DNA from: Pocillopora verrucosa
Taxonomy: Eukaryota > Cnidaria > Anthozoa > Scleractinia > Pocilloporidae
Direction of reading: 5' to 3'
Length of the DNA: 64,000 nt
NCBI RefSeq assembly: GCF_036669915.1
Contig: NC_089319.1
Span: forward strand, 21,732,065-21,796,064
Every line of letters begins with the position of its first letter. The stretch's first letter is position 1. Below the pieces are notes generated by a model, which worked only from the letters and a program-made list of their open reading frames with translations, was not told the origin of the DNA and ran no database searches. The translations under genes and the position numbers were made by a program. Positions 871 through 62,536 of the stretch are shown here, piece after piece.

Positions 871-2467
871 CTACGTAAAGGGCATTTTGCAAGGGTGACT
901 TTTAGACTCATCAAAGCACCCATGCACAGCTTCCAAGAGATTTGCTGTCGTCCAAATAGCCAATGGAACCAGGTTGGTTATCTCATCCAAAATGTGTCTT
1001 TTCCATCTTTTGCGCCAGACAGCCATAACCGCGATGTTCTGAAGATGAGTCTCGATGGCCAGGGTTACGCCGGTGAAAAACCATTCAATAACCAGCGCAA
1101 CTAAGGTATGAATAACAAATTCCTGAAGCAGCCTCAACAATGAAATGTTTTGTAAGTAAATGAATTGCTATACGTACAACAGTCCGTTAACAGACACAAT
1201 GGCAGTTGATTCATACAACATGCTTATAATAACGATATCAGCCATTATTCTCTCCCGGCGAGGAGTGCGAAAACTTCCCCAAGGAGCTGATTTTCTTTTC
1301 AAGATCACATGACAAATATGATCTATGAAGACCATGGCGCTTCGTTCTAGAACTTCTACCGCGCCGTGGATTATTCCAAGAACAGCGATGAGTTTGAGGT
1401 TGTCAAGTTCCGCCTGCATTACCCGAAACATGACTAATGATCCAAAATACAACGGCACTAACAAGACGTATAAGTATCCTGGATGAACAATTTTCTTCAG
1501 GCGTTGAGTGCAAAATCGTAAGATTACCTTATACATAGCTCCAAAGACAGGTGAGAAGAGTGCAATAAGGAGTTTTCCACGTTCAGTTTGTTTGTTGTAC
1601 ATTGGATAAATAAACGATGCTGCAAAGATGCCAATGAAGAAAGTAAAGCTGTAGGACGTTGTCAATTTTATAAATTAAGTCGCTCTCCTCAACAGGATCC
1701 TGAAGTGATTTGTCAGAAGATAAACTTTCCAACATATGCTACTTAGAGACATAATGTTGAGAGGAATCTTCTGAGTCACAGAAAGCTGGGAATGAGATAT
1801 TACAAAGACTTGAAGGACAACACGATGCACTGCATCCACACAGAACAGGACAAAAGCAACAATAATGAGTTTTCTTTTCACACCCCTTAACTGATACGGT
1901 CGAAAAAGAAAAAGCATTTCTACAAAGAACCACACATAAAGAAAGGCATCACCTATCACTTGAGACAATGTTCTGATCCACTGTATTTTAACTGGGATTG
2001 TCTCCTTCGGGTGAAATTGGCAGTTGCGTGTCGTTTCGTAAGAGACGTAAGCGATCATGACGTAAGAAAGGCCGTGGATGACAGCGAATAAAAGTGAAAT
2101 CAATGCGCCGATGTACATTGATTGTGCGAAGAACGGATGGTCTGAATCGCTTCCATGCCATTTCGTCATTTTCATCTTGCTGCTCGTCTCCATCTTCATC
2201 TGGTGAGCTCGCGTTAATGAGCCGATATCTAACTCGAGAATTACCGATTGACCTGAGATCATATTCGTCGTCTGATGGCGGTGAATATTCCTGGTAAATA
2301 GGTTTATCAACGGGCTGACAATTCCACTCTCGACCCTCACTGCTTAAGCTTTCGTTACATCCGAAGATCTCCACCTCAGGCTCATGAGGGTCGTAATGCT
2401 CTGCCACGCTGCGTGTGAAGCTGAATGAAACACGAGCAAAAACTTCAATCAGGAAACTGTTATTCAT
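871..2467 (-). pseudogene. Multi-pass membrane protein, subfamily 1, broken copy
   Basis: A full-length relative of the intact genes at 5501 and 16172, read on the minus strand from an ATG at 2465-2467 (MNNSFLIEVF) to KMPFT and a TAG at 871-873. Three lesions disrupt it. An 8-bp deletion after SVLRT (about 2120) shifts the frame. A TTA-to-TAA nonsense change follows RRAT (about 1675). A TAG follows NGLLYV (about 1166). All hydrophobic segments and the conserved basic loop remain recognisable, so the loss looks recent. The upstream leader is conserved at 2468-2650. Confidence 0.9.
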
Positions 2468-2650
2468 TGTCCGCTATAGAGTCTTCGAGTGAACACTCGA
2501 AATCTTCGATACCGAATGAACATGTTTCGAATAAGCTGCAGGTTTTTTATTATAATGTTTTGAAAGTGAAAATGCTAACAAAGCAAAAACAATCAGCATG
2601 TTAGCGAAAGTATTGATTACTCCACTTGTCTGGTGAAAGTTGAAGAATAA
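2468..2650 (-). promoter_or_regulatory. Conserved subfamily-1 upstream leader
   Basis: Shared with the upstream sequence of all subfamily-1 copies. Reading toward the gene it contains TCAATACTTTCGCTAACATG, a GTTTTTGCTTTGTTAGCA stretch, a CTTATTCGAAACATGTTCAT stretch, and then the start codon. No clear TATA box can be assigned. The promoter or 5' UTR role is inferred from position and conservation. Confidence 0.5.
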
Positions 2651-3134
2651 AGATGTTGACGATCAACGTTATTAGTTGCATATATTTCTATCGTTTGAAT
2701 TTTAAACAAATCCTTATAAAGAGGTAGTCGGAATGAATACTTCAGGTCGTAGACATATAATGAACATGTTATGAATAAGCTCTAGTTTTATTTTATGTTT
2801 TGAAGTGCCAGCAAAACACTAGTCATCCAGCCCTGCCAAGGAATAAAGGTATAAATGCCTCATTTGCATTTCACGGAAACAGGCCAAGCGTCGACCAGAA
2901 GAATCCACCACCATATACTACTGCGTGAAAATTCAAGAGATAAGATGACAACGACTAGTCAGTAATCAATACTTTCGTTTTTCCAGAGATTGTCAGATGT
3001 AATCTAAGCCATGGACACTACTTGGTAATGTATCAGGCGGGACATACTATTTTGCTTTCTCTGATTTTAGGCGCATTGTTCTTTAATATCCATGATTGAG
3101 TGTAAGTCTGAAAGTAAATTACTACACCTCATTG
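2651..3134. other. Conserved intergenic block with octamer motif
   Basis: No gene. It contains TATAAATGCCTCATTTGCAT near 2850, which combines a TATA-like string with a perfect ATTTGCAT octamer (the POU-factor consensus). Related copies lie near 13440, 24990, 48080 and 58935. The block ends CTACACCTCATTG, where a MITE is inserted. Confidence 0.5.
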
Positions 3135-5500: not shown

Positions 5501-7099
5501 ATGACCAACAGTTTGCTGATTGAAGTTTTTGCCCGTGTTTTATTCAGCTTCACACAAGGTGTGACAGAGCATTACGACCCTGACGAGCCTGAAGTGGAGA
5601 TCTTTGGATATAATGATAGCTTAAGCAGGGAAGGTCGAGAGTGGAATTGTCAGCCCGTTGACAAACCTATTTATCAGGAATATTCACCGCCATCGGACGA
5701 TGATCTCTTGTCAGTAGGGAACTCTCGAGTTAGATATCGGGTCATCAACGCAAGCTCACCAGACGGGAGCGAAGACGAACAGCAAAATGAAGATGATGAA
5801 ATGGCTTGGAAGCGATTCAGACCATCCGTTCTTCGCACAGTTTGTCAATCAATGTACATGGCCGCGTTAATTTCACTTCTAGCTGCTGTTATCCTCGGCC
5901 TTTTTTATATCACGATCTCTTACGTCTCGTCCGAACCGATGCAGTACTGGAAACTTCACCCGATGGAGACAATCCCAATTAAAATACAGTGGATCAGAAC
6001 ATTGTCTGACGTGATATGTGTTGCCTTTGTTTACATGTGGTTCTTTGTAGGAATGCTTTTTCTTTTTCGACCGTATCAGTTAAAGGGCGTGAAAAGAAAA
6101 CTCATTCTTGTTGCTTTTGTCTTCTATTGTATGGATACCGTGTATCGTGTTGTCCTTCAAGTCTTTGGAATATCTCATTCCCAGCTTTCTGTGATTCAGA
6201 AGATTCCTCTCTATGTTATATTTCTAATAAGCATATGTTGCCAAGTTTATCTTCTGACAAATCACTTCCGGAACCTGTCGAGTAGAGCGACTTTATTTAT
6301 TCAATTGATAACACCCTCCTGCTTCAGTCTCTTCACTGGCATCTTATTAAAATCGTTTATTTATCCAATGTACAACAAACAAACTGAACATGAAAAACTC
6401 CTTATTGCACTCTTCTCACCTCTCTTTGTAGTTGTCTTGAAGGTAATCTTACGACTTTGTGCTCAACGCTTGAAGAAAATAGTTCATCCAGGATACTCGT
6501 ACACCTTGCTAGCGCCAATGTATTTCGGATCAGCGATCATGTTTCGAGCAATGCAGGCAGAACTTGATAACCTCAGTTTCATCGCTGTTCTTGGAATAAT
6601 CCACGGCGCGGTAGAAGTTTTAGAACGAAGCACCGTGGTCTTCATTGATCATATTTGTCATGTAATCTTGAAAAGGAGATCAGCTCCTTGGGGAAGTTTT
6701 CGCACTCCTCGCCGTGAGAGACTAATGGCTGATATTGCTGTTTTAAGCATGTTATGTGAATCAACTGCTATTGTATCTGTTAACGGCGTCTTGTACTTGT
6801 ATCAGTTCACTTACATGCAAAACATTCCACTTTTAAAGTTGCTTCAGGAGTTTGTTATTCATACCGTAGTTGCGCTGGTGATTGAATGGTTTTTCACCGG
6901 CGTATCCTTGGCCATCGAGACTCGCTTTCAGAATATAGCAGTTATGGCTGTTTGGCGCAAAAGATGGAAAAGACACATTTTTGTTGCAATGGCTAATCTG
7001 TGTCCAATGGCTCTCTGGAAGACAGCAACTTTCTTGGAAGTTGTGCAAGGGCGCTTTGATGAGTGTAAAGGTCATCCGTGCGAAATGCCTTCCACATAG
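5501..7099 (+). CDS. Uncharacterised multi-pass membrane protein, subfamily 1
   Basis: Intact single-exon gene of 532 aa. I do not recognise the family. Residues 1-114 are hydrophilic and acidic, with a conserved start (SLLIEVFARVLFSFT) and an EDEQQNEDDE patch. Hydrophobic segments follow near 118-142, 171-190, 201-224, 235-253, 268-290, 300-319, 332-350, 358-384, 409-436, 448-473 and 493-515, so roughly ten are membrane-spanning. Between the later segments lies a basic loop, SAPWGSFRTPRRERLMADI (394-412). A basic WRKRWKRH stretch (485-492) and the tail GHPCEMPST follow. The start is set by alignment with the paralogues and by the conserved leader ending at the ATG. No signal peptide or enzyme motif is seen. 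A receptor, channel or transporter role would be a guess. Confidence 0.88.
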   Translation: MTNSLLIEVFARVLFSFTQGVTEHYDPDEPEVEIFGYNDSLSREGREWNCQPVDKPIYQEYSPPSDDDLLSVGNSRVRYRVINASSPDGSEDEQQNEDDEMAWKRFRPSVLRTVCQSMYMAALISLLAAVILGLFYITISYVSSEPMQYWKLHPMETIPIKIQWIRTLSDVICVAFVYMWFFVGMLFLFRPYQLKGVKRKLILVAFVFYCMDTVYRVVLQVFGISHSQLSVIQKIPLYVIFLISICCQVYLLTNHFRNLSSRATLFIQLITPSCFSLFTGILLKSFIYPMYNKQTEHEKLLIALFSPLFVVVLKVILRLCAQRLKKIVHPGYSYTLLAPMYFGSAIMFRAMQAELDNLSFIAVLGIIHGAVEVLERSTVVFIDHICHVILKRRSAPWGSFRTPRRERLMADIAVLSMLCESTAIVSVNGVLYLYQFTYMQNIPLLKLLQEFVIHTVVALVIEWFFTGVSLAIETRFQNIAVMAVWRKRWKRHIFVAMANLCPMALWKTATFLEVVQGRFDECKGHPCEMPST

Positions 7100-9823: not shown

Positions 9824-11428
9824 CTATGTAAAGGGCATTTTGCAAGGCTGACCTTTAAACTCGTCAAAGCGCCCATCCACAACTTTCAAGAGACTGGCTG
9901 TCGTCCAAATGGTGATTGGAACCAGGTTAGTTATCGCAACCAAAATGTGTCTTTTCCATCTTTTGCGCCAAACAGCCATAACTGCTATATTCTGAAAGCG
10001 AGTCTCGATGGCCAACGATACGCCGGTGAAAAACCATTCAATAGCCAGCGGAACAGAGGTATAAACTGCAAATTCCTGAAGTAGCTTCAACAATGAAATG
10101 TTTTGTAAGTAAATGAATCGGTATACGTACAACAATCCGTTAACACACACAATAGCAGTTGATTCGTACAACATGCTTATGATAAAGATATCAGCCATTA
10201 GTCTCTCACGGCGAGGAGTGCGAAAACTTCCCCAAGGAGCTAATTTTCTCTTCCAGATCACATGACAGATATGATCTATGAAGACCATGGCGCTTCGTTC
10301 CAGGACCTCTACCACTCCGTGGATTATTCCAAGAACAGCGATGAGTGTGAGGTTGTCAAGTTCTGCCTGCATTACTCGAAACCCGACCGCTGATCCAAAA
10401 TACAACGGCACTAACAAGATGTACGAGTATCCCGGATGAGTAATTCTCTTCAAGCGTTGAGTGCTAAGTCGTAAAATCACCTTAAAGATAACTCCAAAGA
10501 GAGGTGAGAAGAGTGCAATAAGGAGTTTTCCATGTTCAGTTTGTTTGTTGTTCATTGGATAAATAAACAATGCTGCAAAGATGCCAATAAAGAAAGTAAA
10601 GCAGTAGGATGTTGCCAAGTTTATGAATAAACTCACTCTACTCGACAGGCTCCGGAAGTGATCTGTTAGAAGATAAACTTGACAAAATACGCTAATTAAG
10701 AATATAACGTTGAGAGGAATCTTCTGAAAAACAGAAGGCTGGGAATGAGATATTCCAAAGACTTGAAGGACAACACGATACACTGTATCCACACAGAAAA
10801 GGACAAAGGCAACAAAAATGAGTTTTCTTTTCACACCCTTTAACTGATAGGGTCGAAAAAGAAAAAGCATCTCTACAAAGAACCACATGTAAAGAAAGGC
10901 AACACCTACCACGTCAGACAATGTTCTGATCCACTGTATTTTAACTGGGATTGTCTCCTTCGGGTGAAATTGGCAGTTCCGCATCGTTTCATAAGAGACG
11001 TAAGTGATCATGACGTAAGAAAGGCCAATGATGACAGGTGTTAAAAGCGAAATTAATGCGCCGATGTACATCGATTGACAAACTGTGCGAAGAACGGATG
11101 GTCTGAGTCGCTTCCAAGCCATTTCATCATCTTCATTTTGCTGTTCGTCTTCGCTCCCTTCTGGTGAGCTTGCGTTGATGATACGATATCTAACTCGAGA
11201 ATTACCGACTGACAAGAGATCATAATCGTCGTCCGATAGCGGTGAATATTCCTGATATATAGGTTTATCAACGGGCTGATAATTCCACTCTCGGCCCTAA
11301 CTGCTTAAGCTACCGTCGTAACCAAAGATCTCCACTTCAGGCTCATCAGGGTCGTAATGCTCCGTCACGCCGCGTGTGAAGCTGAATAAAACACGAGCAA
11401 AAACTTCAATCAGCCAACTGTTATTCAT
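9824..11428 (-). pseudogene. Multi-pass membrane protein, subfamily 1, one nonsense codon
   Basis: Aligns end to end with the intact 534-aa gene at 16172. The ATG is at 11426-11428 (MNNSWLIEVF) and the stop at 9824-9826 after KMPFT. The only lesion I see is a TAG at 11297-11299, codon 44, where relatives have GAG in SLSSEGREW. The remaining 490 codons are open and keep every hydrophobic segment and the conserved basic loop. It could be a very young pseudogene, an allele with a functional sister, a readthrough gene, a sequencing error, or a 463-aa protein starting at MSVGNSRVRY (11215). The last would lack the conserved N-terminal helix. Confidence 0.85.
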
Positions 11429-11984: not shown

Positions 11985-12336
11985 GATATTGGCATAACAA
12001 GCATGTGGTATAAGTCAATCGGCCTCGTGTCTGTTCTTGCATCAGCTTATGTAGGTGAAAAACGAATCCTTTGCAAATTTGCGTAAATCGTTTGCCATCC
12101 GAACATCAATTTTATTGGTGATTGAGTGGTTTTTCACAAGTGTATCTCTTGCGATAGATGCACACCATCAGAACGTGGCCGTCATGGCTGTTTGGCGGAA
12201 AAGATGGAGAAGAGATATACTTGCAGCAATTGTTAATGCAGTTCCCTTAGTATTGTGGTCCAGTGGGTGTATCATAGAAATTTAACACGGGAGGTTCAGT
12301 GAAACTAAGCATCTTTGCAAAATGCCCTTTTCTTGA
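11985..12336 (+). pseudogene. Subfamily-2 membrane protein, C-terminal remnant
   Basis: The last ~110 codons of a subfamily-2 gene follow a leader remnant, and everything between is deleted. Preserved parts are the ESIGLVSV region (out of frame), NESFANL, VIEWFFTSVSLAI, VAVMAVWRKRWRR and, after an in-frame TAA (GAAATTTAACACGG where relatives read GAAATTTTACACGG, so also a 1-bp deletion), the tail KMPFS and TGA at 12334-12336. Not functional as it stands. Confidence 0.85.
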
Positions 12337-21207: not shown

Positions 21208-21214
21208 TGCCCGG

Positions 21215-25736: not shown

Positions 25737-25740
25737 TTAA

Positions 25741-38790: not shown

Positions 38791-38862
38791 TGATTCGAAC
38801 GGACACGTTTTAGAATAGTACATAACTGCGCATGTTCAAAGTGTATTGGTCGCTGGCCAAAA

Positions 38863-49129: not shown

Positions 49130-49366
49130 AAAAATCCCAAACGTCAATTCTAGTAGTGATTGAGTGGTTTTCACAAGCGTGTCTCTTGCGATCGAGACTC
49201 ATCGATTATCAGAACATGGCTGTTTGGAGAGAAAGATGGAAGAGACACACTCCTGTGCGTTGAAAGGCTGTGGACCAATATTCCATGCAGTGTCATTGGC
49301 ACTATGGTTGAGTGCATACTTTGTGAAAGTTTTTCATGTTCGCTTCGGTGATAATACTCAACCTTA
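49130..49366 (+). pseudogene. Membrane-protein family, C-terminal remnant
   Basis: Retains QTSILVVIEWF, a 1-bp deletion in the TTTTTCAC run, then (other frame) VSLAIETH and, after another shift, MAVWRERWKRH, then HGRF-like VFHVRFGDNTQP. About 75 codons of a subfamily-2-type end. Everything upstream is lost. Confidence 0.8.
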
Positions 49367-50104
49367 AAATGATTGCAATTAAAATAAAATAAGATCTGCG
49401 TAACCCAGACAATAGCCATTAATTTTCAGATTCATTGGAAACTGAAAATTAGTTAATAAAGATCATTCATATTGAATATGATTGCTCGCAAACGACCTCG
49501 CAAACGAATGAATCCGAAAATTTATGGCTATTGTCTGGGTTACACATGTCTGATTTTATTGTAATTGCAATCTACTCAATAAGCAAACGACCTCGCAAAC
49601 GAACCTTAATCTCTTAGTTGAGAATTAAGCTAATGTTGAAGAATGCCCTCCAGCTACATCTGTGTGAAAGCACCCGTTAAAATCTTGATATTTCTTTCTC
49701 TGCTAAAAATAGTAGAGAATAACGAGTTAAATGAGTTTCAGTGATTTTCCTTTGTGGTGTAACAACATTTACCAGTTGTCTGCAAAAACTGTGCATTGGG
49801 ATGAAAACTGGGCAAGCCTTTTGACTTTAATTTGTATATCAATCTCTCTTCTAAGCCCACGATACAGAACATTTATTCCCGAGGAAAACGTTGAGAAAAT
49901 ATGGAAAGGTCAAAACATTATCGAAAGTTTCCATATTCATGCGTATTTATATCCAATTTTTAGGAATGACATCATACACTCTAGAAAGATCAATCAAAAT
50001 TAGAAAATAAACAGGAAAATATCAATGTTGAAATTGAAATCGAGAGTCAGTTGAAACCTTCCTGTTGTATCTCAACGTTCGTTGTAAAAGTAAATCATTC
50101 CAAA
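49367..50104 (+). promoter_or_regulatory. Upstream region and leader of subfamily-2 gene
   Basis: Matches 31193-31260 and 31780-32341, but lacks about 45 bp present in the other two leaders (between TATATCAATC and CCCACGATAC). It ends TAAATCATTCCAAA before the ATG. Promoter role inferred. Confidence 0.5.
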
Positions 50105-51721
50105 ATGAGTAGCAGAACATTGATAGAGGTTTTGGGTCACATCGTGTTTAGTTTTACACGAGGAGTCACCGAGCATTACAATCCTGAAGGACCTGAATTT
50201 ACAGCGGAATCCTTTGGCTACGATCCATTGGAAAGCACCGGTCGAGAATGGTATTATCATCCTGTAGACGAGTTTATATTTCAAGAATACAGCGATAGAA
50301 GGGACACAACTCGTTCTTATCTTCCTTCATCAAGTCTTAGTGTGAGATGTATAGATGCGTGCGCACCAGAAGAAAATAAGGAGACGTTAGGTGGCCAACA
50401 AGATGAAGATCAGTCAATGGCTTGGAAGCGGCTCAGACCATCTGCTTTCTTCACAGCGGGGAAAGCAATGTATATTGGAGCACTTATTTCACTGATAACG
50501 TCTTCTGTCATTGGCTCATTATTCATGTCGGTCATTTATCTGTCGTACAAAACTTTTTTCAACTGTCAGTTTCACTCTAAAGAGTCAATTCCAGTACAAG
50601 TTCAATGGATCAGTTCAGTATCTGGTATCCTCTCCTGTGCTTTTCTATACATGTGGTTCTTCGTAAGCGTGGTTTTGTTATTTCGCCCATTTCAGCTGAT
50701 CGGGGTGAAGAGAAAGCTCGTTCTAGCAACTTTTCTATTGTATGGCTTGGACACACTTTATCGTGTTGTTCTACAAGCGTTACAAATAAATCAGTCAAAG
50801 GCCTTCACAAAGCAAAAGATCCCTCTCCATCTTTTGTTTCTTATGAGCATATGCGTGCAAGTTTATCTTTTAATGAAGCATTTTTTGAGTGTATACTCGA
50901 GAAGACAACGGGCAACATTTTTCTTTCAAATGATTCTACCGACCTGTTTTAGCGGCATTCTGGGTTTCGTCGCAACTTTTTCCGTATACCCAGCTTACGT
51001 TAAACAAAACAAGGAAGGTAAACTTCTGATCGCTATTTTCGCTCCGCTTGTTGGAGTTGTTCTGAAAGTAATTTCAAGGATTTCCTTTCAGCGATTGTGG
51101 AAATTTACACATCCGGGATATTCCTATGTGTTACTGGCGCCAGTGTATTTTGGCTCAGCTATTATGTTTCGAGTATTGCAAGCCGACTTAGACAGTTTAA
51201 AATCCATGACTACTCTTGGAATAATTCACGGCGTTGCAGAAGTTCTAGAAAGAAGCATGATGGTTATCATTGATCACTTCTGCTACGTGCTCTGGAAAAG
51301 AAAATCAGCTCCTTGGGGAAGTTTTCGCACTCCTCGACGCGAGAGGCTAATGGCTGATATTGCCATTATGAGCATGTTGTATGAGTCAATTGGCCTCGTG
51401 TCTGTTAATGGCGTTTTCTTCTTGTATCAACTTATTTACGTGGAAAACGAATCCTTTGCAAATTTGCTTAAATCGTTTGCCATCCAAACATCAATTTTAC
51501 TGGTGATTGAGTGGTTTTTCACCAGCGTATCTCTTGCGATAGAAACTCATTATCAGAACATGGCCGTCATGGCTGTTTGGCGGAAAAGATGGAAAAGACA
51601 TATACTTGTAGCAACTGTTAATGCAGTTCTCTTAGCATTTTGGTCCAGCGGGTGTATCATAGAAATTTTACACGGGCGGTTCAGTGAAACTAACCATCCT
51701 TGCAAAATGCCGTTTTCTTGA
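50105..51721 (+). CDS. Uncharacterised multi-pass membrane protein, subfamily 2
   Basis: Intact single-exon gene, 538 aa from MSSRTLIEVLGHIVFSFTRG; an in-frame upstream ATG at 50051 lies in leader sequence. It keeps the acidic N-terminal domain, about ten hydrophobic segments, SAPWGSFRTPRRERLMADI, VIEWFFTSVSLAIE, WRKRWKRHIL and NHPCKMPFS. Compared with the genes at 32342 and 60920, substitutions cluster in the TM1 region and the last hydrophobic segment. A LINE has inserted about 190 bp after the stop, separating the gene from its usual AATAAA (now at 55687-55692). A new AATAAA at 51905-51910, where relatives have AACAAA, could substitute. Confidence 0.88.
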   Translation: MSSRTLIEVLGHIVFSFTRGVTEHYNPEGPEFTAESFGYDPLESTGREWYYHPVDEFIFQEYSDRRDTTRSYLPSSSLSVRCIDACAPEENKETLGGQQDEDQSMAWKRLRPSAFFTAGKAMYIGALISLITSSVIGSLFMSVIYLSYKTFFNCQFHSKESIPVQVQWISSVSGILSCAFLYMWFFVSVVLLFRPFQLIGVKRKLVLATFLLYGLDTLYRVVLQALQINQSKAFTKQKIPLHLLFLMSICVQVYLLMKHFLSVYSRRQRATFFFQMILPTCFSGILGFVATFSVYPAYVKQNKEGKLLIAIFAPLVGVVLKVISRISFQRLWKFTHPGYSYVLLAPVYFGSAIMFRVLQADLDSLKSMTTLGIIHGVAEVLERSMMVIIDHFCYVLWKRKSAPWGSFRTPRRERLMADIAIMSMLYESIGLVSVNGVFFLYQLIYVENESFANLLKSFAIQTSILLVIEWFFTSVSLAIETHYQNMAVMAVWRKRWKRHILVATVNAVLLAFWSSGCIIEILHGRFSETNHPCKMPFS

Positions 51722-51910
51722 GAGTGCGCCATAGTTGAGGAATGTGGAATAACTAAGAGTTTCCTTCGCCTTTGAGCATATTTATCTGGATTTTATAAGT
51801 AAGAGCTCAAATTTGGTGGAAAATGGACAGGTTCACGCAATTTATCTCGAGACATGACTTTTTTATTCTTTCAAAGAATTATATAAGTGTTTGTTATTTC
51901 GCAGAATAAA
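51722..51910 (+). terminator. Shortened 3' flank before the LINE
   Basis: Subfamily-2 3' flank up to AATAAA (51905-51910), directly followed by the LINE insertion point. The flank resumes at 55612. Confidence 0.5.
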
Positions 51911-51925
51911 ATGATGTATGCGCCC

Positions 51926-54900
51926 AAGATGGCTGCAACGTGTTACTTTGTTCTCATCATATTAGGTTTTTTTATTTGTTTTCCTACTCTCTTTCGATCA
52001 TCATTTATCAATTTTTCGGTTTATGAGAGTCCTCTTACTTTATTGCTGAGATGTCATGGTCCTCCTCGCGCAGTTAGATTGGTGGATGGAAGAAACAAAC
52101 TTAGGCGCTCGATTTGTACTTGGTGCAAACGTGGTCACTTGACGCTTGGTCTGCCTACAAAATTTGACCTTACTATCTTCGTGGACGTTGAATCTAATCC
52201 TGGTCCAACATCCCCTCGGATGGTGGGGATACATAAAGAACAAAACGCCTATCTGGGATATGAGTTCTCTGCGTTTTCGACTGCAACGAAATCGATGAAT
52301 TGGCTTAATCACAATTTACAACACACTTCTCCATTAGTGCCTTTTGTTCGTCGTACTCAGAGCTTCTGCTACAACTGGAATCTCCCATGTAGTTTACTTC
52401 CTCTGGGCAAAAATTGTCAAAGAAAGTTTAGAGGTTGCAGAGCGGGAAAAATAGTTCAAGAAAAGCGGCGACGCTTTAATTATATTCGAGCTTTGGTCTC
52501 ACCCCAAGGCTGTCGATTAAATTCTTCACGATTTACATGCATGATGAAGACTCCTGTTGGATCGAATCTTAGAAATTTAATTGAACTTACTCCTAACCCG
52601 ATTAAAAGCTACACACCAAGGGCTCGCTTCGTGAATTTTTGCTTGCTAAATGCTCGTTCAATTAACAACAAGACTACTATCATCAAGGACTTTGTCGTCG
52701 AAAATAATATTGATCTTCTTGGCTTGACAGAAACATGGCTTCAATCAGATGCTGACAATGAATTAATTATTCGTGATTTATGTCCTTCAGGTTATTCATT
52801 TCATCATGTTCCTAGACCTGGTTCTACTCGTGGAGGAGGAGTTGGCTTGTTATTTCGATCATCTTTCAACTTAAAGTTGCAGCCGCTCAAGAAGTTTTTG
52901 TCCTTTGAATATATGGATTTGTTATTGTCAAGTACAGTCGGTTTAAAACTCAGAGTTATTATTGTTTATCGCCCACCTCCCTCGACCTTGAATGGTTTAA
53001 CACCCTCATTGTTCCTTGATGAGTTTTCTACGTTCCTGGAGCACTATATCGCTGATCCTGGTGGAATATTATTAGTTGGTGATTTTAATATACATGTTGA
53101 CACCTGTTCTTCCCAACACTCAACTGAATTTCTTCAATTGTTGGATTCTTTCAATCTTACTCAACATACACATGGCTCAACGCATAAAGATCGACACACC
53201 TTAGATCTTGTAATTACAAGATCTGATGATAGTATTGTTTCAAATTTAACAATTGGTTCTCCTTTTGTCATCTCTGATCATGCTGCTGTTCACTTCCAGC
53301 TCTCGCTTAATAAGCCGCCGCTCGACAAGAAGATTATTTCATTCAGAAAGCTTCGATCTATTGATTTTGATAATTTCTGTGCTGATGTTATGAATTCGAG
53401 CCTTCCTGATCTTTTTGCCTCGTCATCGTCATCCTTGGATTATTTGATTGATCAATATAACAGAGTCCTTACTACCATACTTGAGACTCATGCTCCACTG
53501 CAAAAAAAGTTAGTTACTTTGCGTCCCGCTGCACCTTGGTATTCTGAGGAGATAAATAATTTAAAGAGATCCCGTAGAAAACTTGAACGACGCTGGCGAA
53601 TGACAAAACTTCCTTCTGATCGTAAGTTGTTTATTGAGGGATGTGATGCTGTCAACAACTTAATTCGTGATTCCAAGAAGAATTATTTCGCATCATTAAT
53701 CAATGAGAATCAGTCAAATTACAAACAGCTTTTTAAGATAATTGATAAACTACTACAAAGGAAAACAGATATTCAATATCCCCCCTGCAAATCGCCCACT
53801 GATCTTGCTAACAAGTTTATTAAGTACTTCACTACAAAGATAGATAGAATACGGGGTCATATAACGACTGCTGCTTTCCCTCATCGAGATACAGTTGCTG
53901 TTGTTGACAACGCCTGTCCATATTCTTTTGATATTTTCAAAATGGTAACAGCGGATGAAGTTCATACATGTATCATGAATCTGGCTGCTAAGTCATGTGC
54001 TCTTGATCCTCTTCCTGGTTATGTTACAAGAAATGCACTTAGTGTTCTGTTGCCTTTCATTTCCAAAATCATAAATATCTCACTGGAATCTGGTCAGATG
54101 CCTTCGCAACTCAAGGTTGCAATGTTACGCCCGCTCCTCAAGAAATCTTCTTTGGATCATACTCAATTCTGCAATTATCGTCCGGTATCGAATCTTTCAT
54201 TTATTAGCAAAGCAATTGAAAAATTGGTAGCTAATCAACTTATCTCCTACATTAACGATTATGAGTTAAATGAGACATTCCAGTCGGCGTACAAGAAATA
54301 TCACAGTGCTGAAACTGCACTTATTCGTGTTCACAATGATATTCTTTCTGCCATTGATAATCGTCGAATCGTAATTTTGCTGTTGTTAGACCTTTCCGCT
54401 GCCTTCGATACAGTCGATCATACCATCCTCCTCTCTCGTTTACGTGTACGGTTTGGGATAGCTGGGAAGCCTCTATTATGGTTGCAATCTTATTTATCGA
54501 ATCGCACGCAATATGTCTCCGTTGATGGTGGTACTTCGACGAAACATGACCTTAAATGTGGAGTGCCACAAGGATCTGTCTTGGGACCCATTTTGTATTT
54601 GCTTTATACTTCACCGCTTTCAGATATCGTAAAGAAATTTAACCTGAGCTATCATTTTTATGCTGACGACTCACAGCTTTACTTGTCTTTCCAACCAACC
54701 GTAGTGGGTGATAGGGATCTAGCGGTTTCTAGCATCGAGAGCTGTGTGGATGAAATCAGTCATTGGATGATGGTTAATCGTCTTAAATTAAATAAAGACA
54801 AAACTGAATTATTGGTAATTTCCGCTAAACATCTTCCAAGACCACTCCTTCACGAAATTTCAGTTGCTGGTGAGACTATTCCTTCCGTGCAAAAGGCGAG

Positions 54901-55513
54901 GAATATCGGCACTATGTTCGACAGCCATTTTTGCTTTAAGGATCATATTACTGACATTTGTAAATCTTCATTTTATCATTTGCGAAATATTAGCTATATC
55001 AGGAAATATCTTTCAGCGACCACTACTGAATTGCTGGTTCATATGTTTGTATCTTCGAAGCTGGATTACTGTAATTCCCTTTTGTATGGCCTACCAGCCT
55101 ACGCTATAAAAAGGCTACAACACGTCCAGAATGCCGCGGCGCGCCTCGTCACACTTACAAAAAAGCATGATCACATTACGCCTGTTCTTTTCAATCTTCA
55201 TTGGCTTCCCGTTAACCAACGTATTATTTTTAAGATTTTACTTATAACCTACAAGGCACTTAACAACCTGGCACCGTCGTACATTTGTGATCTGCTTACA
55301 TCTTACACCCCATCGCGTCAACTACGCTCTTCATTCAAGCACCTTCTGGTTTCTCCATCCTATAACTTGAAAACATATGGCGCAAGATCCTTTTCTGTAG
55401 CAGCACCATCATTATGGAATGCTTTGCCAAGTGAAATTAGAAATGCTCAGTCTGTGTCTGTTTTTAAACGTAGATTAAAAACTTTACTCTTTAGAAAAGC
55501 CTTTTATAATTAA
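51926..55513 (+). CDS. LINE protein: 2A-like site, endonuclease, reverse transcriptase
   Basis: An open frame of 1195 aa from an ATG in strong context (AAGATGG). The frame is open back to 51887, but those codons come from host flank. The N-terminus begins with a hydrophobic stretch (CYFVLIILGFFICF), then a basic region with CTWCKRGH. A 2A-like motif DVESNPGP (52184-52207) would separate about 94 residues from the rest. Next is an APE-type endonuclease (LLNARSINNK, LGLTETWLQ, RGGGVGLLF, LLVGDFNIH, SDHAAV), then the RT (NYRPVSNLSFISKAIEKLVA, LLDLSAAFDTVDH, GVPQGSVLGPILY, FYADDSQLY catalytic) and a C-terminal region (LPVNQRIIFKI). No stop, frameshift or missing catalytic residue was noticed, so it may be competent. 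Confidence 0.92.
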   Translation, partial: KMAATCYFVLIILGFFICFPTLFRSSFINFSVYESPLTLLLRCHGPPRAVRLVDGRNKLRRSICTWCKRGHLTLGLPTKFDLTIFVDVESNPGPTSPRMVGIHKEQNAYLGYEFSAFSTATKSMNWLNHNLQHTSPLVPFVRRTQSFCYNWNLPCSLLPLGKNCQRKFRGCRAGKIVQEKRRRFNYIRALVSPQGCRLNSSRFTCMMKTPVGSNLRNLIELTPNPIKSYTPRARFVNFCLLNARSINNKTTIIKDFVVENNIDLLGLTETWLQSDADNELIIRDLCPSGYSFHHVPRPGSTRGGGVGLLFRSSFNLKLQPLKKFLSFEYMDLLLSSTVGLKLRVIIVYRPPPSTLNGLTPSLFLDEFSTFLEHYIADPGGILLVGDFNIHVDTCSSQHSTEFLQLLDSFNLTQHTHGSTHKDRHTLDLVITRSDDSIVSNLTIGSPFVISDHAAVHFQLSLNKPPLDKKIISFRKLRSIDFDNFCADVMNSSLPDLFASSSSSLDYLIDQYNRVLTTILETHAPLQKKLVTLRPAAPWYSEEINNLKRSRRKLERRWRMTKLPSDRKLFIEGCDAVNNLIRDSKKNYFASLINENQSNYKQLFKIIDKLLQRKTDIQYPPCKSPTDLANKFIKYFTTKIDRIRGHITTAAFPHRDTVAVVDNACPYSFDIFKMVTADEVHTCIMNLAAKSCALDPLPGYVTRNALSVLLPFISKIINISLESGQMPSQLKVAMLRPLLKKSSLDHTQFCNYRPVSNLSFISKAIEKLVANQLISYINDYELNETFQSAYKKYHSAETALIRVHNDILSAIDNRRIVILLLLDLSAAFDTVDHTILLSRLRVRFGIAGKPLLWLQSYLSNRTQYVSVDGGTSTKHDLKCGVPQGSVLGPILYLLYTSPLSDIVKKFNLSYHFYADDSQLYLSFQPTVVGDRDLAVSSIESCVDEISHWMMVNRLKLNKDKTELLVISAKHLPRPLLHEISVAGETIPSVQKARNIGTMFDSHFCFKDHITDICKSSFYHLRNISYIRKYLSATTTELLVHMFVSSKLDYCNSLLYGLPAYAIKRLQHVQNAAARLVTLTKKHDHITPVLFNLHWLPVNQRIIFKILLITYKALNNLAPSYICDLLTSYTPSRQLRSSFKHLLVSPSYNLKTYGARSFSVAAPSLWNALPSEIRNAQSVSVFKRRLKTLLFRKAFYN
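52184..52207 (+). other. 2A-like ribosome-skipping motif
   Basis: Encodes DVESNPGP, matching the D-x-E-x-N-P-G-P consensus of 2A peptides. Translation would skip the Gly-Pro bond and release the N-terminal part from the endonuclease-RT protein. 2A sequences are known from APE-type LINEs of other invertebrates. Confidence 0.8.
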
Positions 55514-55611: not shown

Positions 55612-55882
55612 ATGACTGAGGTACCACACACATAATGGTTAATCAGAATCATAACTTCTATTGTATCGATTGAGTAATAACTATTAAATAAAGCTTTGAA
55701 CTGCACCCTCTAGGGGTATAGAGTCTTTATAACTTACTATAGAGGCTAATGAAATACGCAAAGAGTTTTCAAATCACTCAGCCTAGTCTCGAGACAGCTT
55801 TTGTTCCGTTTACCAAACATCGTCAACCGATCGAAATGTTTCATCAGTACCATATAAGCCTGAATATTGTTAATAATTAAAC
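55612..55882. other. Resumed subfamily-2 3' flank
   Basis: Continuation of the flank interrupted by the LINE, with AATAAA at 55687-55692. It breaks at about 55883 into a subfamily-1 gene fragment. Confidence 0.5.
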
Positions 55883-56960
55883 AGATATCGGATCATCAAC
55901 GCAAGCTCGCCAGAAGGGAACGAAAACGAACAGCAAAATGAAAATGATGAAATGGCCTGGAAGCGACTCAGACCATCCGTTCTTCGCACAGTTTGTCAAT
56001 CAATGTAAATCGGCGCATTGATTTCATTTCTAGCCGCTGTTATCCTCGGCCTTTTTTATATCATGATCTCTTACTGTGATTCAGAAGATTCCTCTCTATG
56101 TTATATTTCTAATAAGCATATGTTGGAAAATTTATCTTCTAACAAATCACTTCCGGAACCTGTCGAGTAGAGCGACTTTATTTATTAAATTGATAACACC
56201 CTCCTGCTTCAGTCTCTTCACTGGCATCTTTATAAAATCGTTTATTTATCCAATGTACAACAAACAAACTGACCTCTCACCTCTCTTTGTAGTTGTCTTT
56301 AAGGTAATCTTACGACTTTGTGCTCAACGCTTGAAGAAAATTGTTCATCCAGGATACTCGTACACCCTACTAGCGCCGTTGTATTTTGGATCAGCGATCA
56401 TGTTTCGAATAATTCAGGCAGAACTTGATAACCTCAAATTTATCGCTGTTCTTGGAATAATCCACGGCGCGGTAGAAGTTCTAGAACGAAGCACCGTAGT
56501 CTTTATTGATCATATTTGTCATGTAATCTTGAAAAGGAGATCAGCTCCTTGGGGAAGTTTTCGCACTCCTCGCCGTGAGAGACTAATGGCTGATATTGCC
56601 ATTTTAAGCATGTTATGTGAATCAACTGCTATTGTGTCTGTTAACGGCGTCTTGTATTTGTATCAGTTCACTCACATGCAAAACATTCCACTTTTAAAGC
56701 TGCTTCAGGAATTTGTTATTCATACCGCAGTTGCGCTGGTGATTGAATGGTTTTTCACTGGCGTATCCTTGGCCATCGAGACTCGCTTTCAGAATATAGC
56801 AGTTATGGCTGTTTGGCGCAAAAGATGGAAAAGACACATTTTTGTTGCAATGGCTAATCTGTTTCTAATCGCTCTCTGGAAGACAGAAACTTTCTTGGAA
56901 GATGTTCATGGGCGCTTTGATGAATGTAAAGGTCATCCGTGCGAAATGCCTTTCAAATAG
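55883..56960 (+). pseudogene. Subfamily-1 membrane protein, 5'-truncated and internally deleted
   Basis: Begins inside the acidic domain (ATATCGGATCATCAACGCAA). It has a TAA in place of Tyr in the QSMY motif, then a deletion from TM1 (FYIMISY) to the IQKIPLYVIF segment, removing TM2 and TM3. From 56076 the frame is open for 294 codons to the TAG at 56958-56960, with an 11-codon in-frame deletion (KQTDLSPLF) and the conserved loop SAPWGSFRTPRRERLMADI intact. The tail is HPCEMPFK, as in the gene at 16172, its closest relative. Confidence 0.85.
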
Positions 56961-57875
56961 AGAACCTCTAAAAACTAAATGCCGGCAGTCTTTAAGCCTT
57001 CCTTGGGTTAATGGGCGTATGTTGATCAAGATTGTTCACATGTTACATTTACCGAAATGTGACAACGAGGAGAACAAAATCGACCCGCTCAGCTTGTGGA
57101 AGGCAAGCGGTCTTTCAGTCTTTTCATAATCCGAGGTCAATTTGCGACAGGCGACGACAGATATGCAGAAACATCGAGATATGAATGGATATATGTCTTT
57201 GGTCACTATTTATTTTTCCAAGAGTCAATGTCATAGTTGTTAAATTTTAAACCTGCCTGTGTTCATTAAAATTCAGACTTTAAATACAGACCGCCATACT
57301 ATTCAATTATAGACAAAAACATTTAATTATTTGTTTCATGAGTTGGTTCGTGTCATAAGCTGTGCTTTCAAGGGAAGTGGCCTTAAGGGCTTTTGAGAAT
57401 TGACCACGTGTTTAAAAAAGTAAGCAAAATGATTCTCTTCCAGTGTATGCAAGTGTGCACCTTCATATAATTCTAAGCGCTATTTCCCTCACGGACCATT
57501 TGTCCTTATGCAGTGTGTGGCTTTTCGTGTGTGTCGTTTGACAGGATTAGAACGACCGAAACCACTTTCAACCACCCTGAGGCCGTTAGGATTAAGAAAA
57601 AAGAGTGGCCATTGTATCAAAACTTTTCCCTTCTCACTCGACTGAGCATAAAAGGCAGAAAAAAATGGATATGAACTGCATTGAGTTCGCTGAAAACGTT
57701 GAGTATATAAAAATGTACTCAGGCTGGAGTTTGCCACATAAGCACTTTCACTAAGAATGTATTTTCACTTTTCAGGTATAAATTTACTTAGAAGATATCA
57801 GCTTTTAGGAAAGATTGCATTTTATATCCCAATTTTAAACTCTTCACTTAAAGTCGGTCATTTGACGGATGAGTT
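56961..57875. other. Duplicate of 17777-18693
   Basis: No gene. Near-identical 3' flank and following leader, part of a segmental duplication that includes the flanking pseudogenes. Confidence 0.55.
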
Positions 57876-58212
57876 ATGAGTAGAAGAACACTGATAGAGG
57901 TGTTTGGTGACATTGTGTTCAATTTCACACGAGGCGTAACAGAGCATTAACAACATTCTGGCTCTCGTCGCGACTTTTTCTGTATATTTCCAGCTTACGT
58001 CAAACAAAACAAGGAAGGTAAACTTCTGATCGTTATTTTAGCTCCGCTTGTTGGAATTGTTATGGAAGTAATTTCATGAATTTCCGTTCGGAAATTTACA
58101 CATCCGGGATATTCGTATGTGTTACTAGCGGCAGTGTATTTTGGTTGAGCTGTTATGTTTCGAGTATTGCATGCCGACTTGGACAGTTTACAATCCATGG
58201 CTACTCTTGGAT
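57876..58212 (+). pseudogene. Subfamily-2-like pseudogene, sister of 18694-19223
   Basis: MSRRTLIEVFGDIVFNFTRG VTEH followed by a stop, then the same internal junction into ILALVATFSVY. Homology continues to QSMATLG and is cut at about 58212, where the recurring segment also found at 24225-24500 begins. It keeps 10 bp (AGCATTAACA) that its sister has lost. Confidence 0.85.
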
Positions 58213-58642
58213 TGGAAAGAGGAAGGAATATTCCAATATATGGGTCAGGAATATACCAAAATAGTGCAAATAATTGTGAAAGCTGATCGCGGAAAAGCGA
58301 TTGCGTGACGCTCGGTGAGTTGGAAGATGACATGTTATCACACATCAAACGAAAAAAAATCTTTAGATTCTCAGTCTGCATTTTGTACCCACTCTGCAGT
58401 CTGAAGTAGGTTATTTCGACATTTTCGTTCCGCGTTAATACTCTTCTTCCCATTCATAAGAATGTAGACATCACTTACAATGTTTCAAGTAAACCACCCA
58501 CCCCCCCAAAAAATAACTCTTGCGTGCGTAGCATGCTTCTGTTTATAATAAGATCACATGTAAGAACCAAGTCTCGTGTTTACGGAAATTGAAGCTGTTT
58601 TGTGGAATAGATCAAGCCTGTTTTCTGCCGTGGACATTGTAC
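58213..58642. other. Recurring segment, no gene
   Basis: 58235-58642 matches 24295-24700 and 46980-47398. Confidence 0.5.
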
Positions 58643-58846
58643 CAACAAAGCAGAAATAATCTGCATGTTAGCGAAAATATTGACTACTCCACTTGTGAAA
58701 GTAAGTGTGCCAACAAAGCAGGAACAATCTGCAAGTTAGCGAAAGTATTGACTACTCCACTTTTGAAAGTAAGAATGCCAACAAAGCAGAAACAATCTGC
58801 ATGTTAGCGGAAATATTGACTACGCGTCTTGTTCACTGAAAATTTG
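58643..58846. repeat. Three tandem 68-bp copies of reversed leader core
   Basis: Copies start at 58643, 58711 and 58779, each with CAACAAAGCAG and a TTGACTAC... end. Nearly identical to 24701-24904. Confidence 0.85.
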
Positions 58847-60328
58847 AGAAAAAGAGATGTTGACGATCAACATTATTAATGATATGTATTTCTATCGAAG
58901 CAAAAACCATCCAGCTCTGTCAAGGATCTGGTGTAAATGCCTCATTTGCATCACAGGGAAACAGGCCAAGTGTCGGCCAGAAGAATCCACCACTATACTG
59001 TACAGCGTGAAAATTCAAGAGACAAGATGAAACCGATTAGTCAGTGATAAAATCTGATGTTTTTTCTCGAGACTGTCAGATATAATTTCACCAATGGACA
59101 CTGCACTCGGTACAGGCGGGAGGTATTCTTTTGTTTTGTCTGATATTAGGCGCATTGTTCTTTAATATCCATGATTGAGTGTAGCTCTGAAATTAAATTA
59201 CTACACCTCATTCAACACTGAGAATATCAATCATTTCTTCGCCAATTTTGAGCTAAGAATGTGTTCTTTAAGGCAGACATTTCACCCAGGAACTCTTCTG
59301 TAACAATCAGTCTCGAAAAATACTGATTTCTTTGGCACTTTGTCGTTACACGGTGCTTATTTATGCAAATTGTTTTCCAGTTGTTCACGATGATTGAAAC
59401 GGCTCGACAGAATTTGTCAGATGAGCTCTTAATTCTTTCATGTGGGTTGTAACGCAAACACCGCATCGAAAATAAGCTTTCAGTTAATAATTTGAACCCA
59501 TATGGGAAATGTTTGGAAAGGCAAGATCATGGAATGATGTGAGCATTTAAGTAAATTTGATCGATATAATTATTTGTCCTGACATACGTATTATATCTAT
59601 GAAGAATCTTGCATGGTCTGATTCAGCATCCGCCGTGAGATGAATTAGTTAGCGAAGTATACAATAAATGATCTTTATTAACTAATTTTCAGTTTCGAAT
59701 GAGTCTAAAAATTTATGGTTATTCTCTGGGTTACGCAAGGCTGATTTTATTGTAATTGCAATTTAATCAAACGACCTCGCAAACGAACCTTAACCCTTAG
59801 TCGAGAATTAAGCTAAGTTGAAGAATGCCCTCCAGCTACATCTGTGTGAAAGCATCCGTCAAAATATAGATATTTCCTTTTCTGCTAAAAATAGCTGAGA
59901 ATAATGAGTCAAATGAGTTTCAGTGATTTTCCTTTGCAGTATAACAACATTTACCAGTTGTGAGCAAAAAATGCGCATTGGGATGAACTGGGTATACCTT
60001 TTGACTTTAATTTGTATATCAATCGCTCTTCGGCATAATTTATGTTCTTTGATATTAAGTCAGAGATTAAGGATATGTCGCCCACGATACCAAATATTTA
60101 CTCCCGAGGCAAAAGTTCAGATAATATCGAAAGTCCAAAGCACTATCGAAAGTTTCCACATTCATGCGCATTTATGTCCAATTTTTAGGAATGACATCAT
60201 ACACATTAGAGAGATCAATTAGAATTGGAAAGTAACGGGGAAATATCAATATTGAAATTGGAATAGAAAGTCAGTTGAAACCTTCCTTTTGTATCTCAAC
60301 GTTCGTTGTAAAAGTAAATCATTCCAAA
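58847..60328 (+). promoter_or_regulatory. Octamer block, empty TTAA site and first leader copy
   Basis: 58847-59740 parallels 24905-25736 plus 31189-31245, with a single TTAA at 59678-59681 where the 5.4-kb transposon sits in the paralogue. 59820-60328 is a subfamily-2 leader nearly identical to 31850-32341. Its gene is cut off after 56 bp. Confidence 0.55.
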
Positions 60329-60384
60329 ATGAGTAGCAGTACATTGATAGAGGTTTTTGGTCACATCGTGTTTAGTTTCACGCG
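60329..60384 (+). pseudogene. Subfamily-2 gene, first 19 codons only
   Basis: ATG AGT AGC AGT and on through MSSSTLIEVFGHIVFSFTR, then an abrupt join to the recurring segment (60385-60657). The full leader and gene restart at 60658. Confidence 0.85.
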
Positions 60385-60657
60385 ATCAACTCGCGCGCAA
60401 AGTGAGAAGACTATATGAAGGCTTGAAATTATATTACAACCGAGGCGGATTTTCATCAAGAAATGGGCCAGGAATATTCCAAAATAGTGCAAATAATTGT
60501 GAAAGCTCATCGCGGAAAAGCGATTGAGTGACGCTCGGTGAGTTGGAAGATGACATGTTATCACACACCAAACGAAAAAACTCTTTAGATTCTCAGTCTG
60601 CATTTTGTACCCACTCCGCAGTCTGAAGTGGGTTAATTCGACATTTTCGTTCCGCGT
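60385..60657. repeat. Recurring segment between two leader copies
   Basis: Matches 24225-24500 and 46915-47195 (AACTCGCGCGCAAAGTGAGA, then AAATAGTGCAAATAATTG). It lies between two copies of the same leader. Confidence 0.75.
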
Positions 60658-60919
60658 TATAGGATATGTCGCCCACGATACCAAATATTTACTCCCGAGG
60701 CAAAAGTTCAGATAATATCGAAAGTCCAAAGCACTATCGAAAGTTTCCACATTCATGCGCATTTATGTCCAATTTTTAGGAATGACATCATACACATTAG
60801 AGAGATCAATTAGAATTGGAAAGTAACGGGGAAATATCAATATTGAAATTGGAATAGAAAGTCAGTTGAAACCTTCCTGTTGTATCTCAACGTTCGTTGT
60901 AAAAGTAAATCATTCCAAA
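60658..60919 (+). promoter_or_regulatory. Second leader copy, directly upstream of intact gene
   Basis: Essentially identical to 60068-60328, ending TAAATCATTCCAAA before the ATG. It lacks the more distal half of the leader, which remains only in the first copy. Role inferred. Confidence 0.55.
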
Positions 60920-62536
60920 ATGAGTAGCAGTACATTGATAGAAGTTTTTGGTCACATCGTGTTTAGTTTCACGCGAGGCGTCACAGAGCATTACAATCCT
61001 GAAGCACTTGAATTTACAGCGGAATCCTTTGGCTACGATCCATTGGAAAGCACCGGTCGAGAATGGTATTATCATCCTGTAGACGAGTTTATATTTCAAG
61101 AATACAGCGATAGAACGGACACAACTCTTTCTTATCTTCCTTCATCAAGTCTCAATGTGAGATGTACAGACGCGTGCGCACCAGAGGAAAATGAGGAGAC
61201 GTTAGGCGGCCAACAGGATGAAGATCAATCAATGGCTTGGAAGCGGCTCAGACCATCTACTTTATTCACAGTGGGGAAAGCAATGTATATTGGAGCACTT
61301 ATTTCACTGTTAACGTCTACTGGCATAGGCTCATTATTCATGTCGGTCATTTATCTGTCGTATAAAACTGAACTCAACTGTCAGTTTCACTCTAAAGAGT
61401 CTATTCCAGTACAAGTTCAATGGATCACTTCAATATCTGGTATCCTCTCCTGTGCTTTTCTATACATGTGGTTCTTCGTAAGCATGGTTTTGTTATTTCG
61501 CCCATTTCAGCTGATCGGGGTGAAGAAAAAGCTTGTCCTAGCAACGTTTCTATTGTATGGCTTGGACACACTTTTTCGTGTTGTTCTACAAGTGTTACAA
61601 ATAAATCAGTCAAAGGCTTTCACAAAGCAAAAGATCCCTCTCCATCTTTTGTTCCTTATGAACATATGCGTGCAAGTTTATCTTTTAATGAAGCATTTTT
61701 TGAGTGGGCACCCGAGAAGACAACGGGCAACATTTTTCTTTCAAATGATTCTTCCGACCTGTTTTAGCGACATTCTTGCTTTCGTCGCAACTTTTTCTAT
61801 ATACCCAGCGTACGTCAAGCAAAACAAGGAAGGTAAACTTCTGATCGCTATTTTCGCTCCGCTTGTTGGAGTTGTTCTGAAAGTAATTTCAAGGATTTCC
61901 GTTCAGCGGTTGTGGAAATTTACACATCCGGGATATTCCTATGTGTTACTGGCGCCGGTGTATTTTGGCTCAGCTGTTATGTTTCGAGTATTGCAAGCCG
62001 ACCTAGACAGTTTACAATCCATGGCTACTCTTGGAATAATTCACGGCGTTGCAGAAGTACTGGAAAGAAGCATCATGGTTATCATTGATCACTTCTGCCA
62101 CATGCTTTGGAAAAGAAAATCAGCTCCTTGGGGAAGTTTCCGCACTCCTCGCCGTGAGAGACTAATGGCTGATATTGCCATTATGAGCATGTTGTATGAG
62201 TCAATCGGCCTCGTGTCTGTTAATGGCGTTTTCTTCTTGTATCAACTTATTTATGTTAAAAACGAATCCTTTGCAAATTTGCTCATATCGTTTGCCATCC
62301 AAACATCAATTTTACTGGTGATTGAGTGGTTTTTCACCAGCGTATCTCTTGCGATAGAAACTCACTATCAGAACATGGCCGTCATGGCTGTTTGGCGGAA
62401 AAGATGGAAAAGACATATACTTGTAGCAATTGTTAATGCAGTTCCCTTAGCATTGTGGTCCAGCGGGTATATCATAGAAATTTTACACGGGCGGTTCAGT
62501 GAAACTAAGCATCCTTGCAAAATGCCGTTTTCTTGA
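60920..62536 (+). CDS. Uncharacterised multi-pass membrane protein, subfamily 2
   Basis: Intact single-exon gene, 538 aa from MSSSTLIEVFGHIVFSFTRG (in-frame upstream ATG at 60866 not favoured). It is the closest relative of the gene at 32342, at roughly 95 percent identity by eye, with differences scattered (IISIS/ITSIS, GHSRR/GHPRR, GFVSAFSLYP/AFVATFSIYP, NHPC/KHPC). All family landmarks are present: the acidic N-terminal domain, about ten hydrophobic segments, SAPWGSFRTPRRERLMADI, VIEWFFTSVSLAIE, WRKRWKRHIL and KHPCKMPFS. AATAAA lies at 62799-62804. The immediate leader is duplicated upstream. Confidence 0.88.
   Translation: MSSSTLIEVFGHIVFSFTRGVTEHYNPEALEFTAESFGYDPLESTGREWYYHPVDEFIFQEYSDRTDTTLSYLPSSSLNVRCTDACAPEENEETLGGQQDEDQSMAWKRLRPSTLFTVGKAMYIGALISLLTSTGIGSLFMSVIYLSYKTELNCQFHSKESIPVQVQWITSISGILSCAFLYMWFFVSMVLLFRPFQLIGVKKKLVLATFLLYGLDTLFRVVLQVLQINQSKAFTKQKIPLHLLFLMNICVQVYLLMKHFLSGHPRRQRATFFFQMILPTCFSDILAFVATFSIYPAYVKQNKEGKLLIAIFAPLVGVVLKVISRISVQRLWKFTHPGYSYVLLAPVYFGSAVMFRVLQADLDSLQSMATLGIIHGVAEVLERSIMVIIDHFCHMLWKRKSAPWGSFRTPRRERLMADIAIMSMLYESIGLVSVNGVFFLYQLIYVKNESFANLLISFAIQTSILLVIEWFFTSVSLAIETHYQNMAVMAVWRKRWKRHILVAIVNAVPLALWSSGYIIEILHGRFSETKHPCKMPFS

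Follow-up and report, generated by a model that had tools for sequence, protein, structure and literature searches.

Chemoreceptor genes of vertebrates and insects lie in tandem arrays together with pseudogenes, evolve under overall purifying selection, and encode seven-transmembrane proteins that are represented by Pfam models; the vertebrate odorant receptors are, moreover, single-exon genes. In stony corals, tandem duplication has been presented as an important means by which gene families are amplified; in the same account 192 orthogroups are expanded in corals, and the amplified families consist largely of receptors that span the membrane and of proteins of adhesion and signaling (Noel et al. 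2023, PMC10236652). Stephens et al. (2026, PMC13044578) describe conserved 'dark' families of corals, to which no function can be ascribed, for which AlphaFold confidence is mostly low, and which have duplicated in lineage-specific bursts. Here we describe a family of predicted multi-pass membrane proteins that is present as a tandem array in a 64,000-nucleotide stretch of the Pocillopora verrucosa genome (C8:21732065-21796064, the whole of which we refer to as the window).

The family has something in common with each of these systems. As in the chemoreceptor arrays of vertebrates and insects, its members are arranged in arrays, are accompanied by pseudogenes and are under purifying selection, and their single exons are like those of vertebrate odorant receptors, but they are predicted to have about 11 helices without a Pfam match rather than a seven-transmembrane fold. 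Tandem growth is shared with the amplified coral families, although those named in that account are G protein-coupled receptors (GPCRs), innate-immune receptors and others with recognized domains (PMC10236652), whereas no recognized domain is found here. By description the family is also like the 'dark' families in functional status, AlphaFold confidence and duplication bursts, but that account does not describe any of its five discussed structures as a multi-pass membrane protein (PMC13044578). Because tandem amplification and 'dark' families have both been described in corals already (PMC10236652, PMC13044578), the behavior of the genome is ordinary for these animals. Tandem amplification in itself is not the new part, which is a large family that is unnamed by the libraries searched.

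Extent and maintenance of the family

Comparison by tblastn within the window identifies five full-length, stop-free, single-exon copies. A sixth copy is likewise full length but is interrupted by a lone TAG, and ten further pieces are broken or partial. The set occupies both strands and comprises two subfamilies, a and b. This is the composition that had been predicted from the letters of the window alone (five intact intron-less genes, one with a single nonsense codon, and at least ten broken copies). The two subfamilies are ~55% identical to each other, and the open copies inside each are 89–96% identical. The open a-subfamily genes are a2 (5501–7099, + strand; 532 residues, a single exon) and a4 (16172–17776, + strand; 534 residues), and the open b-subfamily genes are b1 (32342–33958), b2 (50105–51721) and b3 (60920–62536), all on the + strand and each encoding 538 residues; the start of b1 is taken as the conserved first ATG at 32342 and not the TTG at 32288. 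The sixth full-length copy, a3 (9824–11428, – strand), belongs to the a subfamily and has its TAG at codon 44.

The array is present at positions 871–62536, where the original prediction placed it, but the family is not confined to there. The b1 protein finds at least 83 matching stretches in the 353-Mb assembly (52 contigs), and this number, together with E-values down to 0, excludes chance likeness; only the best candidates are scored in the genome search, and copy counts are lower bounds. At least 41 of the stretches span at least 519 of the 538 residues of b1, 35 of them stop-free and six with one stop. The stop-free copies are located predominantly on contig C8 (28 copies), with four on C14 and one each on C3, C4 and C12, and those on C8 fall into two blocks of ~0.15 and ~0.25 Mb inside 0.9 Mb of one chromosome (eight copies at 21.00–21.16 Mb and 20 at 21.65–21.90 Mb). 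One of the 35, L024, may not be intact, since its frame passes into other sequence ahead of the tail. Searching the genome with a diverged member reveals an older clade on C5, C6, C9 and C13. The older members recovered in this search and in the one with L049 (below) include five open frames (two on C5, one on C6 and two on C9), and with these counted the genome contains at least some 40 open genes.

The open members that were read, L049 and L050 included, have uninterrupted frames of ~503–549 residues, and a few listed frames are longer. Since the frames are uninterrupted even in divergent members, the single-exon structure looks old in the family, a reading that applies to the coding part, with introns possible outside it. 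The most divergent member is L049, a lone 503-residue frame (L049:880-2391, at C9:22.6 Mb) that is 26% identical to the older clade, has a shorter N-terminus, and yields no near copy when the genome is searched. When used as the query it recovers the known sets plus a few weak pieces, including one at C5:9.45 Mb (E 4e-4), and of the members seen it may come closest to an unexpanded relative.

Purifying selection dominates. By parsimony counting on 41 sequences the overall ratio of nonsynonymous to synonymous substitution rates (omega) is 0.40, and at an uncorrected p<0.05 there are 213 purifying sites among 535 and only one positive site; sites with fewer than four changes are excluded, and the counting method is conservative, with low power for episodic selection. 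By region, omega ranges from 0.23 in helix 8 to 0.62 in helix 5 and is 0.41 in the acidic N-terminal domain; pairwise values among the six window copies are 0.19–0.45. It is below 1 on all 41 terminal branches (some with very few changes), and the terminal-branch values of the 35 open copies and the six one-stop copies are 0.437 and 0.438 (p=1.0), with 0.36 on internal branches. As the one-stop copies match the open ones in this respect, their stops are probably recent. The family looks like one that is maintained and not like a neutral repeat, and because the intact copies are preserved by selection they probably do something. Trees, selection and topology counts leave out the partial copies L042 to L047, and L005 and L048 are a single gene; the selection count excludes L009 to L011, the entropy comparison given below excludes these three together with L049 and L050, and L051 to L053 are unaligned.

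Relationship to known families

The family had been put forward as unrecognized, and this is borne out within the collections searched, namely Pfam, NCBIfam, PDB sequences, viral contigs and prokaryote genomes. First, there is no Pfam match above a displayed cut-off in scans of the five window proteins (maximum E 10), a 23-member set (maximum E 10), or 15 single members, 13 of them from that set (maximum E 0.5 and 1). The best match is to MFS_1 (PF07690), a family with which the proteins share their many hydrophobic helices. The match is weak and partial, restricted to two similar members of the 23, and scores 18.7 and 17.8 bits against a cut-off of 33.4; in addition, there are 11 helices here and not 12, and shallow profiles show no internal repeat. 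We therefore reject membership of the MFS on the grounds of these low scores in so few members. Apart from MFS_1, no match in the 23-member set is better than E 0.06 (cut-offs are undisplayed for six members), and other single-member matches, with best E-values of 0.06 to 7.6, are dismissed as chance, all having missed the cut-offs where these are displayed (rescanned members). Second, nothing comes near an NCBIfam cut-off in the six proteins searched, a 13.5-bit match against a cut-off of 62 being taken as chance. Third, profiles of 23 and of 12 members match no sequence in PDB at E up to 10; PDB matches at E 1.4 to 2.3 are likewise taken as chance. Fourth, pattern matches in viral contigs and in prokaryotes (a single genome for each species) are not confirmed by tblastn in any case, these being scans with short conserved peptides that miss remote relatives. 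Finally, the family is not described in the titles and abstract openings of the open-licence PubMed Central literature searched. It may well exist in other animals as unnamed predictions.

Three groups of many-helix proteins deserve separate mention. No 7tm Pfam model, as would be expected of a GPCR, appears in the Pfam scans of window and family members. Insect gustatory and odorant receptors are represented in Pfam by 7tm_6 and 7tm_7, neither of which matches in those scans, and there are 11 hydrophobic segments here, not seven. The same scans give no match to the TMEM16, TMC and OSCA-TMEM63 channels and scramblases.

Predicted architecture and function

Alignment-averaged hydropathy, the only measure used for the count, gives 11 hydrophobic segments, where the original prediction had about ten. 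The acidic N-terminal domain that it described is present in all 23 sequences compared, with a net charge of –6 to –20 across at most the first 104 residues. Lysine and arginine residues are more numerous in the even than in the odd loops in every one of 46 sequences (mean 26.1 versus 12.0), a count in which the basic stretch before helix 1 is put with the even loops and the acidic first 104 residues are excluded, the sequences are related, and the loop limits were drawn once the charges had been seen. From this excess, and following the positive-inside rule, we infer a topology with the N-terminus inside, which with 11 helices would place the C-terminus outside.

Several conserved features can be placed on this predicted topology. 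The motifs RTPR and W...W..H (the latter part of WRKRWKRH) are each present in at least 44 of the 46 members, L049 being without RTPR. They were among the loop and tail motifs noted earlier as shared by all copies, which stands for these two and, in most members, for the cysteine in the tail, but not for the exact SAPWGS... string, which is a feature of one clade. The only near-universal cysteines are Cys154, in the first outer loop, and Cys533, in the tail, each present in 43 of the 46 sequences (34 for the next best). Both are predicted to lie outside, which suggests that they form a disulfide. Cys154 is absent from a2, a4 and L025, all members of a single clade, and L025 lacks both cysteines; it is the only true replacement at Cys533, since L007 and L024 are read only up to a point short of it. 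These losses, which amount to few events, would look like the loss of a disulfide. Conserved charges lie in the predicted helices 3 (D216 and R220), 6 (K321 and R325), 7 (R356), 8 (H375, E379, E382, R383 and D390), 9 (E427) and 10 (E469). Among 41 sequences, the mean column entropy is 0.82 bits in transmembrane helices (TM) 6–10 and 1.45 bits in TM1–5 (p=2e-9), and is higher in outer than in inner loops (1.44 versus 0.85 bits, p=3e-6). In the same sequences a helical periodicity of conservation is seen for TM8 (p below 0.0005), and a weak one for TM6 (p=0.03, uncorrected).

Judged from sequence features, the best explanation of the whole, which we put forward tentatively, is that the proteins are transporters or channels with a variable repertoire, possibly used in chemical sensing. 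Each protein would cross the membrane 11 times, with a cytosolic acidic tail of ~100 residues. A basic cytosolic face would be made up of the RTPR..R..AD loop together with the W...W..H stretch, and the C-terminus would be outside, its tail linked by a disulfide to the first outer loop. A conserved charged core would be formed by helices 6–10, joined by D216 and R220 of helix 3, and this polar core would move or gate an ion or small solute. The variable outer half, consisting of helices 1–5 and the outer loops, would set the substrate or ligand handled by each copy, and it is proposed that the many copies would thereby give a repertoire. The proposal in its complete form, namely an unnamed 11-helix class with the N-terminus in and the C-terminus out, an extracellular disulfide and a charged core, on which corals would draw as a large repertoire of channels or transporters with chemosensory or substrate-specific roles, is doubtful.

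Several observations weigh against a transporter or channel of this kind. First, the Wimley-White sum is unfavorable for helix 8 (+6.2), which holds most of the charges, and near zero for helix 9 (–0.4), so that both the number of 11 helices and the placing of the C-terminus outside may be mistaken. Second, conservation shows no significant periodicity in any of the remaining nine helices. With no periodicity and almost no excess-replacement sites in TM1–5, the variation there may represent relaxed constraint rather than tuning. Third, AlphaFold run on window sequences only returns a mean predicted local distance difference test score (pLDDT) of 36.8 with the N-terminus (10 rows) and 40.9 without it (18 rows). 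Fourth, comparison by hhalign at four splits, made with shallow profiles (Neff ~3–3.6), gives a probability of at most 0.3% and so no significant sign of an internal repeat such as many transporters possess. Finally, gene conversion could bias the selection counts.

A membrane receptor of the chemoreceptor kind (GPCR-like or insect-receptor-like), which would be expanded for sensing and would signal without moving a substrate, fits the single-exon tandem arrays with many pseudogenes, the variable outer loops and the conserved cytosolic face, and the order of N-terminus inside and C-terminus outside is reminiscent of insect odorant receptors. With eleven hydrophobic segments to accommodate in place of seven, no match to a Pfam receptor family in the scans of window and family proteins, and many conserved charges inside predicted helices, we consider it unlikely. 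The charges could instead be the active site of a membrane enzyme or lipid handler (acyltransferase-, lipase- or scramblase-like), built from the cluster of His, Asp, Glu and Arg residues; indeed, H375, E382, R383, D390, E427 and S428 are each present in at least 44 of the 46 sequences. This too is unlikely, as no such family is above the cut-off in Pfam (a single member matches E1-E2_ATPase at E 7.6) and an enzyme offers no reason for some 40 copies.

The original prediction had pointed to dynamics typical of receptor, immune or gamete-recognition families, of which the immune and gamete parts are weakened; chemosensory or transport roles may still apply. An immune, allorecognition or gamete-recognition family under diversifying selection would share the tandem birth-and-death with pseudogenes, and the largely tandem-duplicated families amplified in corals do include receptors linked to innate immunity in the account of Noel et al. 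(PMC10236652). Such a role is improbable here, given the omega of 0.40 (0.41 in the N-terminal domain) and the single nominally positive site against 213 purifying, even for a method that is conservative and would allow for episodic selection or allelic diversity; the outer loops are also short, and no recognition domain scores above cut-off in the Pfam scans. Finally, that the family is a mostly non-functional repeat subject to duplication and decay, its open copies merely young, is very improbable, for although fragments are many and recent losses are common (the six one-stop copies among 41 near-full-length ones, with open-like terminal-branch omega), 35 frames are free of stops across 519 or more of the 538 residues, no terminal branch reaches an omega of 1, albeit with very few changes on some, and the core is conserved between branches that share only about one-quarter of their residues.

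Chemical exchange and sensing link corals to algae, bacteria and prey, and many of the participating proteins have not been identified. With its some 40 open genes under purifying selection, unrecognized by Pfam, NCBIfam and PDB sequences, the family would be a concrete set of candidates for these roles, and it would serve as a test case in assigning function to 'dark' coral genes. Should the fold prove to be a known one, the lesson would be only that sequence libraries miss the family.

Growth of the array and neighboring elements

Self-comparison of the window reveals three duplication units, all in the + orientation, in which adjacent paralogues share duplicated flanks with non-coding parts that are 91–97% identical. 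Unit 1 (16862–34345) contains the end of a4, a b fragment, a spacer and b1; unit 2 (46160–51914) contains the spacer and b2 and is ~91% identical to unit 1; and unit 3 (56070–62921) is a compact counterpart of unit 1, the segments 16862–19019, 24299–25740, 31776–32398 and 32083–34345 matching parts of it at 95–97%. Unit 1 is longer than unit 3 because its parts are separated by other sequence, in which Gypsy-like RNaseH pieces occur near 21.3 kb. Clades in the tree are confined to single blocks, and synonymous divergence (dS) of 0.06–1.7 among the six window copies indicates that copies diverge rather than homogenize. Stops, frameshifts and truncation are all seen as modes of copy loss. The family thus expands as segments of one or two genes are duplicated in tandem, and its copies are lost through nonsense, frameshift and truncation, in agreement with the tandem birth-and-death proposed originally. 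The divergence between b1 and b3 is very uneven, with dS of 0.010 in alignment columns 111–250 and 0.139 over all columns from 401 onward, which is a pattern that a tract of gene conversion or exchange might possibly give.

The broken and partial copies illustrate these losses. Among those of the a subfamily, the pseudogene at 871–2467 (– strand) has a frameshift separating its N-terminal and main parts and two internal stops; an N-terminal fragment lies at 20859–21173 (– strand, by tblastn); the copy at 41613–42401 (– strand) retains only about the N-terminal third; and the pseudogene at 55826–56960 (+ strand) is without its N-terminus and residues ~146–227, its C-terminal half being open. 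The b-subfamily pieces, all on the + strand, are a C-terminal fragment at 11998–12333 (tblastn), a fragment with several stops at 18786–19238, a b-type C-terminal fragment in two frames at 49138–49364, and fragments at 57876–58223 containing residues 1–24 and then 292–376. The start of b3 is itself duplicated (60329–60385, + strand), 60070–60385 being 99% identical to 60661–60976. An older and diverged copy is broken into three pieces at 38860–40236 (+ strand).

Frames of other kinds lie between the copies. A non-LTR (long terminal repeat) retrotransposon frame of 1208 residues with RVT_1 and Exo_endo_phos domains (51887–55513) begins ~165 bases past b2, between units 2 and 3. At 36512–37729 (– strand) a frame of 406 residues, which we take to resemble a Penelope-type element, matches reverse transcriptase weakly (26.4 bits against a cut-off of 29.6), and at 35516–35968 there is a frame with zf-RVT, a zinc-binding domain of reverse transcriptases (33.3 bits, cut-off 27.5). 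Several neighboring minus-strand frames at 27003–29771, two of which were scanned without a Pfam match at E 0.001, are possibly one decayed gene or element. Elsewhere in the assembly, exons of the GFP family give 74 matching stretches, all above cut-off, against zero in 14 control genomes, which by itself would point to a cnidarian and most likely to an anthozoan, although genes of the GFP type are not strictly confined to cnidarians. Two large clusters of these exons lie on contig C1 at 0.67–0.88 and 28.36–28.79 Mb.

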